64,000 nt of DNA from NCBI RefSeq assembly GCF_007993755.1, contig NZ_CP042467.1:831501-895500 (forward strand), in the 5' to 3' direction. Shown here piece by piece: positions 22,125 to 31,202 of this stretch (positions are counted from its first letter, which is position 1; the number at the start of each line of letters is the position of its first letter). The notes beneath the pieces were generated by a model. It was given only the letters and a program-made list of their open reading frames with translations. It did no database searches and had not been told where the DNA came from. The DNA is from Microvenator marinus. Lineage in GTDB: Bacteria > Myxococcota_A > Bradymonadia > Bradymonadales > Bradymonadaceae. Both the position numbers and the translations under genes were made by a program.

Positions 22125-22202
22125 CCTTCACGCTCAACAGAAAGCAGTGGTATGAGTTAAGCCTTAGCTATATTGGTGGATTTGGCGCATGCAGGCAATG
22201 CC

Positions 22203-23240
22203 ATGAGAAGAGAGATTCTTGAACCCGGCCAGGTAGTCGACGGGCGCTACCAGATCCTTGGGAAACTAGGCGCTGGCGGGTTCGCGACAGTCTTCGACGC
22301 CGTCCACCTATCGCTTGGACGATCAGTCGCGGTAAAGGTTCTCGATGTGTCCGGCATTAGTGATGACGCCTACATGGAGCGTTTCTCCCGCGAAGCCCGG
22401 ATCTGCGCTCAACTCGATCACCCGTCCATCGTGCGGATCCACGACTTCGGGCAACTCGGCGAGGGTCAGCCCTATATCGCCATGGAGAAGCTCACGGGTC
22501 ACGACCTCGAAGTAGAGCTCAAAGCGACTGGCCCACTGAGTGTTGAGCGGATGTTACGACTCTTCGTCCCCGTGCTTGAAGGTCTCGGACTCGCACACAA
22601 GGCGGGGATCGTTCACAAAGACCTAAAACCCTCCAATCTTTTCCTCGTAAACCCCAACACTCCAGAAGAGAGGTTGGTTGTCGTGGATTTTGGTATCGCG
22701 AGAGTCCTCGATTCGAAAACTCAACTCACTCAAGCGGGATCCTTCGCGGGCACGCCGGCCTACCTTGCACCCGAATACATCCAGAATCAGGTCGTCTCCC
22801 CAGCCCTGGACGTCTATCAAATGGGACTCATCATCGTAGAGACGCTTAGCGGTCGTCCTGTCGTGCGGTCTGAATCGGCGATCGGCTACATCATGAAACA
22901 CATTCAGGGTGAGCATGATATTCCGGACGGGATCAAGAGCGGCGCATTGGGAACCGTGCTACTAAAGGCGCTGAGCATCGATCCAACAAGCCGATATCCA
23001 GACGGTTCCGAGTTTTCTCGTGCACTAGCGGGAGTTCGGATGACCGGCGAGCCGGTGCCAACACTTGCGATGCCTCCCGTACACTCGCCCCCACCATCTT
23101 CCCCGTTGATCCAGACAAACTCCGCGGCTAAGGTGCCCGCGCATCGTTCCTCGGGAATGCCTCTTTGGATGTCGATGCTTATCCTCGTCTCGTTCTTTTT
23201 CTTTTCGGGATGCGTCATTTGCTCCCTTCTCTCCCTTTAG
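22203..23240 (+). CDS. Membrane-anchored Ser/Thr protein kinase
   Basis: Hanks-type kinase of 345 residues from ATG 22203 (a GTG at 22173 in the same frame is the alternative). Active-site features are complete: LGAGGFATVF, Lys45 in VAVKVLD, catalytic HKDLKPSN (Asp140; Lys replaces the usual Arg) and DFGIAR (Asp162), then GTPAYLAPEY. A Pro/Ser-rich linker leads to one C-terminal hydrophobic segment (about 320-340) ending in CVICSLLSL, so the kinase domain faces the cytoplasm and there is no extracellular sensor domain. It precedes folE2 by 8 bases. Confidence 0.92.
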   Translation: MRREILEPGQVVDGRYQILGKLGAGGFATVFDAVHLSLGRSVAVKVLDVSGISDDAYMERFSREARICAQLDHPSIVRIHDFGQLGEGQPYIAMEKLTGHDLEVELKATGPLSVERMLRLFVPVLEGLGLAHKAGIVHKDLKPSNLFLVNPNTPEERLVVVDFGIARVLDSKTQLTQAGSFAGTPAYLAPEYIQNQVVSPALDVYQMGLIIVETLSGRPVVRSESAIGYIMKHIQGEHDIPDGIKSGALGTVLLKALSIDPTSRYPDGSEFSRALAGVRMTGEPVPTLAMPPVHSPPPSSPLIQTNSAAKVPAHRSSGMPLWMSMLILVSFFFFSGCVICSLLSL

Positions 23241-23248
23241 AAAGCCCC

Positions 23249-24046
23249 ATGGAAGACGTACAAAACCGCAGCGATAACCGCGAGATCCCCATCGACCGCG
23301 TCGGTGTGACAAACCTCAGATATCCTATCATCGTGTGGGATAAGGCAAACGAGAGTCAGTCCACCGTGGCTACACTCTCGTTGTCAGTGCACCTGCCACA
23401 TCACTTCAAGGGGACTCATATGAGTCGATTCCTCGAAGTCCTCAACGAACATCGCGGCGAGTTCACCATTAAAACCTTGCCGACCGTCATTCACGAGCTC
23501 AAGACTCGCCTGGATTCAGAAGCCGCGCACATCGAAGCACGGTTTCCGTATTTCATCGAAAAACAAGCGCCAGTCACGAAGAAGACGTCTTTGCTTGATA
23601 TCGAAGGTTATTTCCATGGCGCTTCAGACGCTAGCGGCGATGACTTTATCCTCGGCGTCAGTGTACCGGTCACGAGCTTATGCCCGTGTAGCAAGGAAAT
23701 CTCAGACTACGGCGCGCACAACCAACGAAGTACCATCACGATTGAGATTCGCATGACTTCGGCGGCCAGCGAACACTTCGTTTGGATGGAAGACCTGATC
23801 GAAATCGCCGAAGCATCAGCCTCAGCGCCGCTCTATGCCTTGCTGAAAAGGCCAGACGAGCGTTTCGTGACCATGCAAGCTTATGACAACCCCGCGTTCG
23901 TCGAAGATATCGCGCGCAACGTGGCCAAACGCCTGCAAGACGACGAGCGAATCGGATGGTTTCGTGTAAAATGTGTGAATCAGGAAAGCATCCACAACCA
24001 CGATGCCTTCTCGGAAATCCTCTGGACCCGACCCACCGAATCCTAA
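23249..24046 (+). CDS. folE2: GTP cyclohydrolase FolE2 (type IB)
   Basis: 265 residues from ATG 23249. Converts GTP to 7,8-dihydroneopterin triphosphate, the first step to folate and queuosine. The family signature SLCPCSKEIS (Cys145, Cys147) and DYGAHNQRS are present, along with NHDAF near the end. FolE2 enzymes can use metals other than zinc, which is why they are often zinc-regulated; no Zur box is visible here. It lies between a kinase and pyrC and may be co-transcribed with both. No other folate gene is close. Confidence 0.95.
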   Translation: MEDVQNRSDNREIPIDRVGVTNLRYPIIVWDKANESQSTVATLSLSVHLPHHFKGTHMSRFLEVLNEHRGEFTIKTLPTVIHELKTRLDSEAAHIEARFPYFIEKQAPVTKKTSLLDIEGYFHGASDASGDDFILGVSVPVTSLCPCSKEISDYGAHNQRSTITIEIRMTSAASEHFVWMEDLIEIAEASASAPLYALLKRPDERFVTMQAYDNPAFVEDIARNVAKRLQDDERIGWFRVKCVNQESIHNHDAFSEILWTRPTES

Positions 24047-24062
24047 GACCTGAGAAGAGCCC

Positions 24063-25364
24063 ATGCCTACTTTTCACGACCGAAATCAACTCACCACGCT
24101 TTTGAAAGGTGTCCGGGTCATTTGCCCTGCGAAGTCCATCGATCGTGTTACGGATGTGCTCATTGGCCCTGAGGGGATCGAGCTGGACTCGCAGGCGAGT
24201 GCCGATCGTGTGATTGACGCAAACGGGATGTGGGCCACGCCTGGCCTCACGGATTTACAGGTCCATTTCCGCGAACCCGGGTTCGAGTACAAAGAGACCA
24301 TCGCGTCAGGCTCCAAAGCTGCGCTCGCCGGCGGGATTACCACCGTGGTGGTCATGCCAAATACCAAACCGGCTTTGGATTCGGCCGAAGAAGTTGAGCG
24401 GCAACACTCGCTTTCGAAAGCCTGTGATGGCGTTCGAGTTCTGGTGGCGGCCGGGGCGACCAAAGACATCCAGGGCCATGAACTCAGCGACTACGAGGCT
24501 CTGAAGTCCGCAGGCGCTGTGGCCGTGACGGACGACGGCTATCCTTTGGCCAACTCAGACATCATGTTGAAGAGCCTTGAGCATTGCGCGCAACACGACC
24601 TCCTCTTCATGCAGCATGCGGAAGACCTCACGCTCAGCAAAGATGGGGTCATGACCGAGGGGCCAACAAGCGACAGGCTCGGCCTCGCGGGGCAACTTGC
24701 GGACGCTGAAGGCGCGATGGTTGAAAGAGACGTTGCGCTCGCGCTCAAGACCGGAGCGCGCTACCATGTTTTGCATATGTCTACCCAAAGAAGTCTAAAC
24801 GCTGTCCGCGAGGCGCGCTCAAAAGGTGCAAAAGTGACGTGCGAAGTCTCGCCGCATCACCTGCTCCTGACCGACGCTGATGTTGACCAAGGCGGCACAC
24901 CGGACACGCATTTCAAGATGAATCCACCGCTTCGTGCCGAGCACGACCGATTGGCGCTGATCGAGGGATTGCGAGACGGCACGGTGGACGCGGTGGCCAC
25001 TGACCACGCACCCCACTCGGCCGAAGAGAAAGCGCGGGATTTTGCAAAGGCGCCTTTTGGTATAATCGGTCTTGAGACAGCTTTCGCATCGGTTTTACGG
25101 TTCGTACATGACGAAACGATTACGGACCAGCGCGCGGTCGAGCTCATGACATCCGGCCCTGCCCGCGTCCTCAACCGTCTGGAGCTCGCAGAACTTCATG
25201 GCGACCTGACGCTCATCGACCCGAACTACGAATGGGTCGTGTCGGAGTCGGATTTTTGCGGCGCACAGAAGAACTCCCCCTTCACGGGCCAGAAGTTCAA
25301 AGGGCGAGTCAGGGCGACATTTAAGGACGGCGCATTGAGATATACTCACGACTTGGAGGTTTGA
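24063..25364 (+). CDS. pyrC: Dihydroorotase
   Basis: 433-residue amidohydrolase that interconverts carbamoyl-aspartate and dihydroorotate in pyrimidine synthesis. Conserved segments: VVMPNTKPALDS, AVTDDGYPL, MQHAED, HVLHMSTQRS, EVSPHHLLLT, HFKMNPPLR and ATDHAPHS with Asp at the catalytic position. The usual HxH metal motif reads DLQVHFREPG, with Gln66 replacing the first His while His68 remains. Similar DxQVHFREPG forms occur in some active bacterial dihydroorotases as I recall, so this is probably a subgroup feature, not loss of function. xthA begins at the next base after the stop. Confidence 0.9.
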   Translation: MPTFHDRNQLTTLLKGVRVICPAKSIDRVTDVLIGPEGIELDSQASADRVIDANGMWATPGLTDLQVHFREPGFEYKETIASGSKAALAGGITTVVVMPNTKPALDSAEEVERQHSLSKACDGVRVLVAAGATKDIQGHELSDYEALKSAGAVAVTDDGYPLANSDIMLKSLEHCAQHDLLFMQHAEDLTLSKDGVMTEGPTSDRLGLAGQLADAEGAMVERDVALALKTGARYHVLHMSTQRSLNAVREARSKGAKVTCEVSPHHLLLTDADVDQGGTPDTHFKMNPPLRAEHDRLALIEGLRDGTVDAVATDHAPHSAEEKARDFAKAPFGIIGLETAFASVLRFVHDETITDQRAVELMTSGPARVLNRLELAELHGDLTLIDPNYEWVVSESDFCGAQKNSPFTGQKFKGRVRATFKDGALRYTHDLEV

Positions 25365-26123
25365 GTGAAGATCATCTCGTGGAATATCAACTCGGTTCGC
25401 GTGCGAATTGAGCAGCTTCTTGAGCTTCTAAGGCAAGAGAAGCCAGACATCGTTTGCCTGCAGGAAATCAAGTGTGAGTCCGGAGATTTTCCTCATCTGG
25501 ACGTGCGATCGCTAGGATACTACGCCGTAGTGCTCGGACAGAAGAGCTACAATGGGGTCGCCATATTGAGCCGAGATCAACCCGCTCTTGTGAGTGATGG
25601 ACTCGAGACCGATATCGGTGGTTTGCGAGAGGCCCGCGCCATCAGCACGCGGCTTGGATCGTTTGATGTTCTCAATGTCTACGTTCCAAATGGTGATGTG
25701 GTCTCGAGCGATAAGTTCGACCATAAACTCAAGTGGCTAGACGCGCTCTTTGAGTCCATCGACTCCAAATGGTTTGATGACGATCCCCTTATCGTATGCG
25801 GCGATTTCAATATTGCTCCGGAAGACGAAGACACTCACGACCCCGCTCAATGGAAGAGCTCGGTGCTCTGCGACCCACGCGTTCGAAAGCGACTCAAGAC
25901 GCTTGAGGATTGGGGACTCGAGGACCTCGGCCGAGATGCACACGAGTTCACCTGGTGGGACTATCGCAATCAGGGATTTGAGAAAGACGAAGGTTTGAGA
26001 ATTGACCTCATCATGGCCACCTCCGCCCTCAAGTGTACAAAAATCCGTGTGGCTCGGGAGTTCCGTGGCATGGAACAACCATCCGACCATGCGCCCGTTA
26101 TCGCTGAGTTTGAGGCCCCTTAG
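25365..26123 (+). CDS. xthA: Exodeoxyribonuclease III (AP endonuclease)
   Basis: 252-residue Mg2+-dependent endonuclease/exonuclease of the Xth family, acting at abasic sites in base-excision repair. Motifs: MKIISWNINSVRVR at the start, LQEIKC (catalytic Glu34), NVYVPNGD, CGDFNIAPEDEDTHDP, FTWWDYR, LRIDLIMAT and PSDHAPV at the end. It starts with GTG directly after the pyrC stop, with GGAGG 6 bases upstream, so it is translationally coupled to pyrC. Confidence 0.95.
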   Translation: MKIISWNINSVRVRIEQLLELLRQEKPDIVCLQEIKCESGDFPHLDVRSLGYYAVVLGQKSYNGVAILSRDQPALVSDGLETDIGGLREARAISTRLGSFDVLNVYVPNGDVVSSDKFDHKLKWLDALFESIDSKWFDDDPLIVCGDFNIAPEDEDTHDPAQWKSSVLCDPRVRKRLKTLEDWGLEDLGRDAHEFTWWDYRNQGFEKDEGLRIDLIMATSALKCTKIRVAREFRGMEQPSDHAPVIAEFEAP

Positions 26124-26213
26124 GACCGCTCTGGTGGGTTGATTTCCTAAGTTTAATTTCTGTGGTAAGCTTTTAACTTAGTGAGGGAAGTCACGAATTG
26201 ACCAGGAAGACCT

Positions 26214-26885
26214 ATGCCCTACAACTGGGACGCAATCAACGAAGACCCCCAAACGGAAACCCGTCTCTATCGCCTTATCGGCGAGATGCTCAAAGGCCGA
26301 GCGAGCATGGCCGATTTGGAGCGAGTGGCGCAGTTCCTACAAAAGGGGCAAATCGGACCAGACGCGTGGCAGACGGTTGGCGAAGCCCTTCACACCACGA
26401 CCAAAGGCGCCCCTGAGGGCTACAGGCTCTGGGCGGCGTGGTCCAAACGGCTACCCGACGTCACAAGTGATGACGAGGAACTCGGTTTGATGTGGCGGCG
26501 CTTTGGCGGAGAACTGATTTTCGCCGAAGACGATTGCCCGACCGACGAAATCGACTCCACCGCCATCGATGCCTTTGATAATAGCGTGGTGAGCCAAACA
26601 GCGGTCATCTCGCTGACCAAAAACACGCTCATGCAATACCTGCCCGAGGGCACTTACAGCATTCGGTTCATCGACGAAGAATTTCACGGTGTGGACGAGT
26701 TCAATATCGTCAAATTGCTTCGTCGCGGCATCCTCCTTGGTGCCGAGGTTCTATACCGAGGCCAATGGATTCCAGTCGCGCTGCACCCAGACTTCGAACC
26801 ACTCACACGTATGGTCCGCGCTGAAGTCCGCCGCGTACTCGCCAGAAGCGCATCTGAAAACACTTCCGAACAAAACCGCGCTTGA
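26214..26885 (+). CDS. PriCT_2-like domain protein
   Basis: 223-residue soluble protein. Residues about 37-101 (WQTVGEALHTTTKGAPEGYRL to SDDEELGLMWRRFGG) closely follow the pattern of primase C-terminal domain 2 (PriCT_2), a helical module normally fused to phage or plasmid primases. Residues about 165-215 (DEFNIVKLLRRG, EVLYRGQWIPVALHPDFE) resemble a GYF_2/DUF4339-type peptide-binding fold. No primase catalytic domain is present. Both assignments are pattern recognition only. The gene ends inside the promoter of tRNA-Pro; an AGGAAG site precedes ATG 26214. Confidence 0.6.
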   Translation: MPYNWDAINEDPQTETRLYRLIGEMLKGRASMADLERVAQFLQKGQIGPDAWQTVGEALHTTTKGAPEGYRLWAAWSKRLPDVTSDDEELGLMWRRFGGELIFAEDDCPTDEIDSTAIDAFDNSVVSQTAVISLTKNTLMQYLPEGTYSIRFIDEEFHGVDEFNIVKLLRRGILLGAEVLYRGQWIPVALHPDFEPLTRMVRAEVRRVLARSASENTSEQNRA

Positions 26886-26934: not shown

Positions 26935-27008
26935 CGGGGCGTGGCGCAGCCTGGTAGCGCACTTGCATGGGGTGCAAGGGGTCGCAGGTTCAAATCCTGT
27001 CGCCCCGA
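26935..27008 (+). tRNA. tRNA-Pro(GGG)
   Basis: 74 nt, acceptor CGGGGCG/CGCCCCG, anticodon GGG in loop ATGGGGT, discriminator A, no encoded CCA. Its anticodon arm (26959-26983) is copied exactly at 27821-27845. A terminator follows. Confidence 0.96.
26959..26983 (+). repeat. Direct repeat copy 1, inside tRNA-Pro (possible attachment site)
   Basis: 25 bases covering the anticodon stem-loop and a few flanking bases of tRNA-Pro are identical to 27821-27845. Integrases of the tyrosine family often recombine at the anticodon arm of tRNA genes, leaving the intact tRNA on one side. Confidence 0.7.
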
Positions 27009-27016
27009 TTTCGAAG

Positions 27017-27050
27017 AACCCGCTAAGATTTACTTAGCGGGTTTTCTTTT
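27017..27050 (+). terminator. Intrinsic terminator after tRNA-Pro
   Basis: Stem AACCCGCTAAG/CTTAGCGGGTT (27017-27027 with 27033-27043), loop of 5, followed by TTTTCTTTT. Confidence 0.92.
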
Positions 27051-27056
27051 GCTCGC

Positions 27057-27746
27057 TCAAAGACTCTCAAGCACTTGGATCTTCTTCGGATCCAGTCGTT
27101 CAACAAAACAATCAATGGGTATGATGATGCCTTCTATCATCTTCACCACGTTTGCAGGCCTGAGATCGAAAACCCCGAATTCGTCATTGTAAAAACTGAG
27201 CGAGTTCCTATAGCCAAATGAGTGTTGAAGCTCTCGAAAGCCAAGCTCAAACATGTGTTGGCGGATTTCGGGAACGGTAGCCCTCTCTCCAGCGATCCAA
27301 TCTTGTTGGATTAGGATCGAAAACTTGGATTGGACACCAGCGACGCCCACAAAATCGGTTTGGAACCCCCAGATTTCTTCAGCGGCAATGAAACGGTCGA
27401 GATACTTGAGAGGGTCTTGGCACGGCGAAAGTCCCGGCGAGTCGGTCTAAATCAACGAAGTATCCAAAACCAGGAGGAATTGTAGCCTTGAAACAGACCG
27501 TGCGACTGGAGCGGACTAGGTGTTCTCGCCCACCTCGGGCGAATTCAGCGAGTTCACTTGCGCAGATGTTTGGGTTGATGCCTTCAGCCCATTTGAAGAA
27601 AGCAATTCGAGTAAGGATATTGTTTTCAGACTCGTCCAACCATTCATCTTCATGATTTGTTGGTTCTGATCTTCGATAGTAGGACTGAAACTCTTCTTTT
27701 GCTTCTCTAATGCGCACAGAAACTTCTGTTTATAGTCTTCGTTCAT
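27057..27746 (-). pseudogene. Frameshifted kinase-like gene (polyvalent-protein-kinase type)
   Basis: Two minus-strand frames together read like one protein. The upstream frame (27379-27717) ends with FKATIPPGFGYFVDLDRLAG. The downstream frame resumes at about 27420 with KYLDRFIAAEEIWGF and continues through GERATVPEIRQHMFELGF to DLRPANVVKMIEG and IIPIDCFVERL. The order and the final DxRPxN...PID pattern recall putative polyvalent protein kinase domains carried by mobile elements. The strongest start (GGAGG, ATG 27746) is in a third frame, so there may be a second shift near 27700. It lies wholly between the two copies of the tRNA-Pro arm, so it probably arrived with an integrated element and decayed. 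Translational frameshifting is the alternative. Confidence 0.6.
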
Positions 27747-27820
27747 TTTTCGACCTCCGCAGAGTCCGCATCAGAATAACATTGCCGTCATACAAATCAA
27801 ACGGAAGCCATGTTTCTGGA

Positions 27821-27845
27821 GCACTTGCATGGGGTGCAAGGGGTC
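27821..27845 (+). repeat. Direct repeat copy 2, detached tRNA-Pro anticodon arm
   Basis: Exact 25-base copy of 26959-26983, 862 bases downstream and not part of any tRNA: no D-arm, T-arm or acceptor pairing surrounds it. It fits the far attachment site of an element that integrated in tRNA-Pro. Confidence 0.75.
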
Positions 27846-27898
27846 TGCTTTACTCTCTGAAGGGATGTGCTTAACATATGCGGGTGTGTGGAGTGCAA

Positions 27899-28387
27899 AT
27901 GAGCGAACCCGTTTGGAAAAAAATCAGGGAGGCCGCCCCGCTAAACGCCGAGGGATTATTGGCGGGACTCGACCTGGACCAAAGTTTTCCTGTGGATGTT
28001 GAGGCGGTGGCTCAAGGTATGGGAATCGGTATTGAGCGCACGGCCGATGACGAAGATGGCTGCCTCGTGATTGAAGATGGAAAGGCGACGATCAAGATTT
28101 CTGAGCGTGTGGCTCCGGTGCGCCAACGGTTTACGATTGCGCATGAGCTCGGCCACCTTGCGCTTGGGCACGAGTTCGAACGCACTATTCACCGCGACGT
28201 GAGCCCGCAGCGCCCTTGGAAAGTGGAACGTGAAGCTAACGCATGGGCTGCACAATTCCTGATGCCTGAAGACCGTGTAAGAGTCGTGGCGAAGGCCCTG
28301 AGTTCGTTGGAGGAAATGGCCAGCTACTTCAATGTCTCGACCGATGCGATGATTTACAGGCTCAAGGACCTTGGCATCATTGACTAG
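27899..28387 (+). CDS. ImmA/IrrE family metallopeptidase
   Basis: 162 residues from ATG 27899 (GGAG site). The zinc-protease motif HELGH sits in RFTIAHELGHLALGH, with a downstream EREANAWAAQFLMPEDRV supplying the third ligand (Glu) and the usual EANxFAAxLLMP-like box, and a C-terminal FNVSTDAMIYRLKDLG helix pair. Members of this family cleave phage-type repressors in mobile elements or regulate stress responses. Here no repressor (XRE) gene is adjacent. It starts 54 bases beyond the tRNA-derived repeat. Its stop shares CTAG with the convergent gene. Confidence 0.9.
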   Translation: MSEPVWKKIREAAPLNAEGLLAGLDLDQSFPVDVEAVAQGMGIGIERTADDEDGCLVIEDGKATIKISERVAPVRQRFTIAHELGHLALGHEFERTIHRDVSPQRPWKVEREANAWAAQFLMPEDRVRVVAKALSSLEEMASYFNVSTDAMIYRLKDLGIID

Positions 28388-29001: not shown

Positions 29002-30108
29002 CTAGTCAGGCAAGTACACAAGGTTGATGGTGGCGCGCCATGCACCTAGTCGGCCCGTGTTATCATTCAATGCCCTTAGCGTAATGGTTTGGGGGCCAGG
29101 ACCAAAGTCGAAAACACGCGTCGTTGAGATATGGTTCGTGGTGTCCTTGGCGAGGAAGCCGAAGAAGTGGCCATCCGTGGTGTTGAAGTCGGTAAAGGTC
29201 TGCAGCGAGCTCGCGTTGGCCGTGAGTGCAAGATAGGCCTCAACATCAGTTGTTGAACAATAGGTTTGGGAGGTGGTCGCAAAGGTGTCGCAGAAGAAGT
29301 CCACGCTTCCTGTTGCCACGATGCTCCCAGCGGCCGGTAAGTTGATTTGAGCGCTGATTAGTGTATCGGCAGCGATGCCGTCAAAATAGACCGGATTCGA
29401 GTGCCCCGCGAAGGCGTAAACCGAAAACGGCTGGTTGGTGTTGCCGCCCGTCCCGTTACAAACGTATCGCGTGGAAGTGACCTCACCCGACTCAAGCACA
29501 CCGTTTCGGTTTTGGTCCAAACCAGACGTGATTCGCACTCCACCTGCCACACAGTTTGCGCCAGGTGCCTCGGCCTGAGTTGCTACCAGTGCGCTTAGGC
29601 CTGACTGCCCATCGGAGCCGTCTTGGCCGTTGGTTCCATCCTGGCCGTTCGTACCATCTTGACCGTCTTCGCCGTCCGCACCGTTGAGGCCGTTGGTCCC
29701 GTTGCACACGTACTCGGTGGATTTGACCTCCGAAGCCGAAAGAATACCGTCGCCATCAGAATCGGTTCCGATATCCAGGCGAATGCCACCTTGCCCACAA
29801 TTTGGACTGGGGGGCTCTTCCTCAGTGTTGACCACGGTCTCTGCGGCAGATTGAGGTTGGCAAAAGAGATTGTCTTTGTTGATTTCGAGTGGTGCCAACG
29901 CACCGTCGTTATTGAGATCCTCGCCCACAATCAACCTCTGTCCACCAATCGGACACTCATCGCCGGGTTCAATCTCTTCCACATCCACGATGAAACTTCG
30001 GCCGTCTTGACCGTCTGCTCCTGCTGCGCCGTCCTCACCGTCGAGGCCGTCTACGCCAGCACAAGATATAGAAAAAATAGCCAAAACAAGTGGAAGTCGT
30101 GTCTTCAT
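29002..30108 (-). CDS. Collagen-like repeat lipoprotein (DUF7151-type)
   Basis: 368-residue lipoprotein (lipobox SISC, Cys16). After the signal, GVDGLDGEDGAAGADG and a second block near 140-170 (GADGEDGQDGTNGQDG) are collagen-type Gly-Xaa-Xaa repeats. Between them are three copies of a unit patterned CxxGGxRixxGxDxNxDGxLxxxEVxxTxYVCNG, with Ca2+-loop-like Asp/Asn spacing (DLNNDGALAPLE, DSDGDGILSASE, DQNRNGVLESGE). This is the DUF7151 pattern as I recall it. The C-terminal 130 residues form a separate beta-rich domain. Likely surface-exposed; function unknown. An AGGAG site precedes ATG 30108. Confidence 0.78.
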   Translation of the reverse strand: MKTRLPLVLAIFSISCAGVDGLDGEDGAAGADGQDGRSFIVDVEEIEPGDECPIGGQRLIVGEDLNNDGALAPLEINKDNLFCQPQSAAETVVNTEEEPPSPNCGQGGIRLDIGTDSDGDGILSASEVKSTEYVCNGTNGLNGADGEDGQDGTNGQDGTNGQDGSDGQSGLSALVATQAEAPGANCVAGGVRITSGLDQNRNGVLESGEVTSTRYVCNGTGGNTNQPFSVYAFAGHSNPVYFDGIAADTLISAQINLPAAGSIVATGSVDFFCDTFATTSQTYCSTTDVEAYLALTANASSLQTFTDFNTTDGHFFGFLAKDTTNHISTTRVFDFGPGPQTITLRALNDNTGRLGAWRATINLVYLPD

Positions 30109-30634: not shown

Positions 30635-30841
30635 ATGGAACTACATGTAGATGGAATGACTTGCGGCGGATGCGTACGGTCTGTGCAACGCGTAATCGCT
30701 AAACAAACTGGGATTGAGGCCGAGAAGGTCACCGTAGATTTGGAGAGCAAATCCGCACGATTCGAAGGAAACCCGCCCGATACAGAAAAGTTGGTGGAAG
30801 CCCTTAAGGCGGCTGGCTTTGAAGCCAAACCAAAGGGCTAA
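30635..30841 (+). CDS. Heavy-metal-associated (HMA) domain copper-chaperone-like protein
   Basis: 68 residues, a single HMA ferredoxin-like domain. The metal site GMTCGGC (Cys11, Cys14) is intact, followed by VTVDLESKSARFEG and a final KAAGFEAKPKG. It probably carries Cu(I) in the cytoplasm like CopZ. GGAGG lies 5 bases before ATG 30635. No copper ATPase is adjacent, so it stands alone. Confidence 0.9.
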   Translation: MELHVDGMTCGGCVRSVQRVIAKQTGIEAEKVTVDLESKSARFEGNPPDTEKLVEALKAAGFEAKPKG

Positions 30842-30842
30842 A

Positions 30843-31130
30843 TTAGAACGTGTAGGTGAAACCGAGTTTTGCCCCAGGCATCACCGGGGTTAGTCGGATG
30901 CAGGCTTCTTCACCGGTATTGTGATCCTTAAAAATCACCATCTCGAGTTTGTTCGCGACCGCCTTCTCCACCCCTTTAAACATCATGGGGAGCATGAGTG
31001 GAGCCTGTTTAACCGCGGAGCTTACTCGAACCAATGTGTTCTCATTGGTTGGTGACTCCGTCTCTTGAGCCGCCAGTGGACTCGCGAAAAGTGAGAGAGC
31101 CAAGAACACTAAAACGTGCAATCTTTGCAT
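30843..31130 (-). CDS. Small secreted hypothetical protein
   Basis: 95 residues from ATG 31130 (GAGG site). Sec signal peptide ending PLAAQ; mature part of about 74 residues with one Cys. I recognise no family. It is convergent with the HMA gene (1-base gap) and divergent from the metallophosphatase. Confidence 0.55.
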   Translation of the reverse strand: MQRLHVLVFLALSLFASPLAAQETESPTNENTLVRVSSAVKQAPLMLPMMFKGVEKAVANKLEMVIFKDHNTGEEACIRLTPVMPGAKLGFTYTF

Positions 31131-31202
31131 CAAAACCTCATCCGTTGAGATTCAATAGTAACAAAACCTACATGTCGCGCAAAGTTGAACTTCGATAAGA
31201 CC

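Follow-up and report, generated by a model that had tools for sequence, protein, structure and literature searches.

A 25-nt anticodon-arm copy downstream of tRNA-Pro(GGG) in Microvenator marinus: a probable relic attachment site of a lost island

The window analyzed here, a 64-kb stretch of the single-contig, 5.85-Mb genome of Microvenator marinus, contains an intact tRNA-Pro(GGG) gene followed by its terminator, a decayed gene on the opposite strand, a second copy of an internal tRNA segment and a gene for a metallopeptidase. The locus is composed as follows:

26214-26885, plus strand: left-flank gene encoding a PriCT-2-like protein of 223 aa
26934-27009, plus strand: intact tRNA-Pro(GGG) (ARAGORN; Rfam RF00005, 60.1 bits)
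26959-26983, plus strand: 25-nt repeat, proximal copy, inside tRNA-Pro(GGG)
27015-27045, plus strand: intrinsic terminator of tRNA-Pro(GGG)
27057-27746, minus strand: decayed gene with two frameshifts, from a family of 230-250 aa, with a sub-threshold Kinase-PolyVal match
27821-27845, plus strand: 25-nt repeat, distal copy, probable truncated attR core
27902-28387, plus strand: ImmA/IrrE-type (M78) metallopeptidase gene, outside the repeats (Pfam PF06114, 5.1e-20)

The PriCT-2-like gene adjoins tRNA-Pro(GGG) in the genome studied and in the relative G004, and according to alignments a stem-loop resembling the terminator is also present 3' of this tRNA in most relatives, while the sequence 3' of the tRNA varies from genus to genus. 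A genome of the same genus with an empty or filled site was found neither among the relatives examined nor among the genome contigs scanned with the left-flank gene. In genus g13, an insertion polymorphism located 3' of the terminator (G016 vs. G013 and G018) was rejected as a counterpart; it concerns a different gene without tRNA repeats and is probably due to gene loss. Compared with relatives, the gene order beside the tRNA (window positions 22173-26885 and 30635-31133) is rearranged. Most members of the family have parA directly upstream of tRNA-Pro(GGG), whereas a kinase-FolE2-pyrC-xth block intervenes in the window, and the HMA-s96 pair resides on opposite sides of the tRNA in G004 and in the window.

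In complete agreement with an earlier note on this DNA, the tRNA-Pro(GGG) segment GCACTTGCATGGGGTGCAAGGGGTC at positions 26959-26983 recurs as an identical copy in the same orientation at 27821-27845, with a start-to-start distance of 862 nt. The proximal copy corresponds to positions 26-50 of the 76 positions of the tRNA gene and runs from the end of the D-stem through anticodon stem-loop and variable loop. The distal copy is preceded by no tRNA 5' half and followed by neither T-arm, acceptor end nor terminator; its last base is position 50, where the variable loop meets the T-stem, and the sequence on each side of it is unrelated. The claim that no tRNA surrounds it was likewise borne out, as ARAGORN predicts none there.

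Within the 64-kb window this pair is the sole exact direct repeat of at least 25 nt, and the remaining direct repeats of at least 18 nt, which stem from tRNA-Ser genes and simple repeats, reach 18-21 nt at most. A chance repeat is ruled out by the number of exact 25-nt pairs expected at the base composition of the window, about 2e-6 per window and about 7e-8 within 1 kb. Presence of the repeat in many genome copies, which the earlier note had named as evidence against an integration scar, was not observed: a search of the complete 5.85-Mb genome allowing up to three mismatches yielded no third copy, and with two copies in the whole genome membership in a repeat family is also ruled out.

From the terminator to the distal copy there is a single minus-strand gene of about 230 codons that is frameshifted twice. 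Intact homologues of 231-247 aa are encoded in G004, G035, G202 and G268, and neither tRNAs nor recognized integrases occur in their neighborhoods. The decayed gene matches Kinase-PolyVal (PF18762) with 21.5 bits, below the curated cut-off of 27, and the homologue from G035 scores 31.4 bits. Identification as a known phage or plasmid gene was rejected, as there is no phage or plasmid match at E<=1e-3. Of the statement that the copies enclose only a terminator and a frameshifted mobile-element-type gene, the terminator and the twice-frameshifted gene thus stand, while the attribute "mobile-element-type" depends on a match scoring 21.5 against a cut-off of 27 bits. The interval 27057-27820 has a GC content of 0.467, and because this lies below every other 764-nt window sampled over the 64 kb (mean 0.548, sd 0.024), the interval is probably foreign.

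Guides of Tn7-like and CRISPR-associated elements can match tRNA genes. As tRNA fragments also occur as CRISPR spacers (PMC9897764) and the insert starts just after the terminator, the copy might be a guide or spacer of such an element that homed to the tRNA; with no CRISPR-type repeats beside the copy and neither Cas nor Tns among the Pfam-scanned genes flanking it, we consider this extremely improbable. A search of the genome for TniQ gave no match, a result that does not prove absence since control genomes gave none either.

The ImmA/IrrE gene beyond the distal copy had been taken as typical of mobile elements. The gene as such is present, but its GC content of 0.558 is host-like, and its nearest homologue (44%), located in G011, is surrounded by large chromosomal genes with no recognized integrase. 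Because it lies outside the repeats and has host-like composition, the gene would seem to add little to the idea of an island. Farther to the right, positions 29002-30108 of the window encode a secreted-looking protein of 368 aa with three DUF7151 matches and collagen-like repeats.

The distal copy, located ahead of immA within the divergent intergenic region 27747-27901, folds into the anticodon hairpin, as would suit an anticodon stem-loop mimic serving as a decoy or regulatory element 5' of immA/irrE. Such a function appears quite improbable, however, given that the region is no more structured than shuffled sequences (z -0.48), that a search ahead of immA revealed no promoter-like site and that G011, with the nearest ImmA homologue, and G004, with a homologue of the decayed gene, each have one match to the 25-mer, their tRNA. 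That the 25-nt anticodon arm has been kept as a transcribed tRNA-Pro anticodon-arm mimic in the leader of the ImmA/IrrE-type protease gene and is no dead scar would be very improbable. A conserved role upstream of immA is not supported, as relatives possess homologues without the copy.

To judge what a displaced tRNA fragment looks like in this group, seven intact anticodon-type att duplications from the window's genome and its family served as controls. In all seven the duplicated segment begins at position 28-32 of the tRNA gene and extends at least as far as the tRNA 3' end, so the copy studied here, which starts at position 26, begins 2-6 nt further 5'. Two of the intact islands are in the same genome as the window:

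3315903-3324783 of G000:C1 (L216:8903-17783): intact island of 8.8 kb at tRNA-Pro(TGG), with a 48-nt exact repeat
604154-612822 of G000:C1 (L217:7154-15822): intact island of 8.5 kb at tRNA-Ala(GGC), with a 54-nt exact repeat

At tRNA-Ala(GGC) identity continues past the 54-nt repeat through the terminator, and in each island an integrase of 383-411 aa is encoded beside the distal att. These are two of the four integrase-family genes of the genome; the other two, specifying proteins of 308 and 330 aa, match XerC/XerD as far as predicted size is concerned.

Further islands were found at tRNA-Pro(GGG) itself. In G003 a second copy is located 21 kb away, in G010 tandem att copies follow 35-46 kb downstream of the tRNA, and a tyrosine integrase is present beside one end in both cases. 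Besides the window, these two genomes are the only ones in the family with non-tandem second copies of the 25-mer. The remaining genomes of the class that match twice are G034, G037 and G240; their matches, about 91-107 bp from each other, resemble tandem tRNA genes. Based on the islands in G003 and G010 and those of the window's own genome, tRNA-Pro(GGG) can be regarded as a genuine integration hotspot in this family, with anticodon-arm crossover usual in the group and a non-tandem second copy of the 25-mer otherwise signifying an island.

The islands of G003 and G010 show additional features. In G003 (G003:C4:240001-277000, L130-L131), the tyrosine integrase carries an Arm-DNA-bind_3 domain and the 21-kb element also encodes an Eco57I-type restriction-modification methylase. 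The att copies at tRNA-Pro(GGG) in G010 (G010:C1:125001-195000, L059-L061 and L128) are located at about 132.1, 167.1, 174.6 and 178.6 kb, with the integrase about 150 bp after the intact tRNA, and in every distal copy the tRNA 3' half is accompanied by a terminator unlike that beside the intact tRNA. The same genome also contains a shorter duplication at tRNA-Pro(CGG).

Our preferred reading, to which we assign a probability of roughly 0.6, is that the distal 25-mer is the relic attR core of an anticodon-loop island at tRNA-Pro(GGG) whose interior has disappeared together with the integrase and the 3' portion of attR. A tyrosine-integrase island, with the 3' half of the tRNA duplicated in its attP, would have crossed over at the anticodon loop; its integration would have restored a whole tRNA at one end and left the displaced tRNA fragment at the other. 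Later deletion of the larger part of the island, integrase included, would have spared a single frameshifted gene of low GC content. Through a second deletion or rearrangement, on the right, the displaced fragment would have lost its T-arm, acceptor end and terminator, and the core would have come to adjoin the upstream region of the ImmA/IrrE gene. This second event is indispensable: closing up between the copies yields no tRNA, so excision between them could not give a viable starting site, and the simple model of an element bounded by the two copies fails without it.

Several observations are consistent with a relic attR. The repeat is exact, not explicable by chance, and located 3' of the tRNA with its orientation preserved, as expected of attR; the other non-tandem second copies in the family belong to islands with a tyrosine integrase; two intact anticodon-type islands, each with an integrase, occur in the same genome; the start at position 26 is close to the 28-32 of the seven intact duplications; the insert combines the lowest GC content in the window with a gene frameshifted twice; and the DNA 3' of tRNA-Pro(GGG) differs between genera. 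On the other hand, the fragment is internal (26-50) while true displaced fragments reach the tRNA end, and its left edge is 2-6 nt beyond that of the intact copies. In the section of the window from 25 to 40 kb neither an integrase nor an integrase remnant was detected, and the genome's two integrase-family genes outside the intact islands are XerC/XerD-sized. Insert and sequenced intact islands show no nucleotide similarity beyond the core, the left-arm sequences of att sites share with the relic only chance matches of 9-10 nt, and homologues of the decayed gene reside in neighborhoods devoid of tRNAs and recognized integrases. The proposal of the earlier note, an element that used tRNA-Pro and then shrank, is therefore retained in part: the tRNA-Pro(GGG) islands of G003 and G010, the two islands of the own genome, the foreign insert and the side and orientation expected of attR speak for it, while the internal fragment, the lack of an integrase and the failure to regain a tRNA on closing up do not.

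A rival explanation is an illegitimate duplication, in which a template switch during replication or repair placed 25 nt of the tRNA at the edge of a nearby insertion or rearrangement, a site-specific integrase never having been involved. The copy is internal to the tRNA with both flanks unrelated, no integrase is nearby, and the locus is rearranged relative to relatives, as is evident from the kinase-FolE2-pyrC-xth block and the side taken by HMA-s96 in G004. Nevertheless, this origin appears rather unlikely, because the 25 nt coincide with the core used by integrases in the same genome and family and the copies exactly enclose a foreign gene of low GC content. Alternatively, the distal copy could be an attP-like core brought along by another element that entered otherwise and had no mimic of the tRNA 3' end, so that an island never existed between the copies. 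The near-symmetry of the copy about the 7-nt anticodon loop, with unrelated sequence on both flanks, would be compatible with such a core, yet the tRNA 3' half is part of all intact sites observed in this analysis, and left junction plus core were matched in no viral contig; we judge this origin improbable.

Islander catalogues anticodon-type (site A) tRNA islands, uses an internal-fragment filter and applies a length criterion of 2-200 kb (PMC4383910). In keeping with its rules, the tDNA fragment shares replicon and orientation with the tRNA gene and lies on the side where integration would put the displaced piece. However, the distal copy is internal (26-50 of 76) and not an end fragment, no integrase lies inside or overlaps, and 862 bp fall short of 2-200 kb. 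As it stands, the candidate falls outside the class "tRNA island" and could be nothing more than a relic of one. What would be asked of a relic attR is found in three respects: the fragment starts in the 5' anticodon arm like the intact att copies of the clade (26 vs. 28-32), intact islands occupy the same tRNA in G003 and G010, and the DNA between the copies is probably foreign (GC 0.467 vs. 0.548, frameshifted gene).

With the anticodon-type islands of Islander the locus thus shares an intact tRNA, a downstream fragment in the same orientation from the 5' anticodon arm and foreign DNA between them, while it differs in the internal fragment, the length of 862 bp and the missing integrase. The islands at tRNA-Pro(TGG) and tRNA-Ala(GGC) belong to the same genome and use the same class of anticodon-arm site, but they feature repeats of 48-54 nt to or past the 3' end, an integrase and 8.5-8.8 kb of cargo. 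Those of G003 and G010 agree in tRNA gene and core and, unlike the relic, possess complete displaced tRNA 3' halves and integrases; they have no cargo in common with it. The tRNA-gene fragments that mobile elements leave behind are known as attR relics, and those reported delimit elements of about 9-23 kb (PMC9897764). They resemble the present case as partial tRNA copies near an intact gene, whereas the distance here is below 1 kb.

Such fragments are already well known, and the candidate would be a degraded member of this group (PMC4383910, PMC9897764). If a relic attR is the right reading, the locus would be a further integration hotspot at a tRNA-proline gene, marked by a fossil attachment site. 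Standard island finders would discard such a site as short, internal to the tRNA and without integrase, and its main use is that of a worked example for reading relics against intact islands of the same genome.

Finally, the two intact islands of the window's genome are sister elements, with protein segments about 65-75% identical over much of their bodies. Both encode a CHC2/Toprim primase and a helicase-like protein with a weak DUF5906 match, and no close relatives of the latter turned up elsewhere in the class. The integrases are 23% identical, and one targets tRNA-Pro(TGG), the other tRNA-Ala(GGC), such that the pair looks like a satellite-like element with a swapped integrase module.
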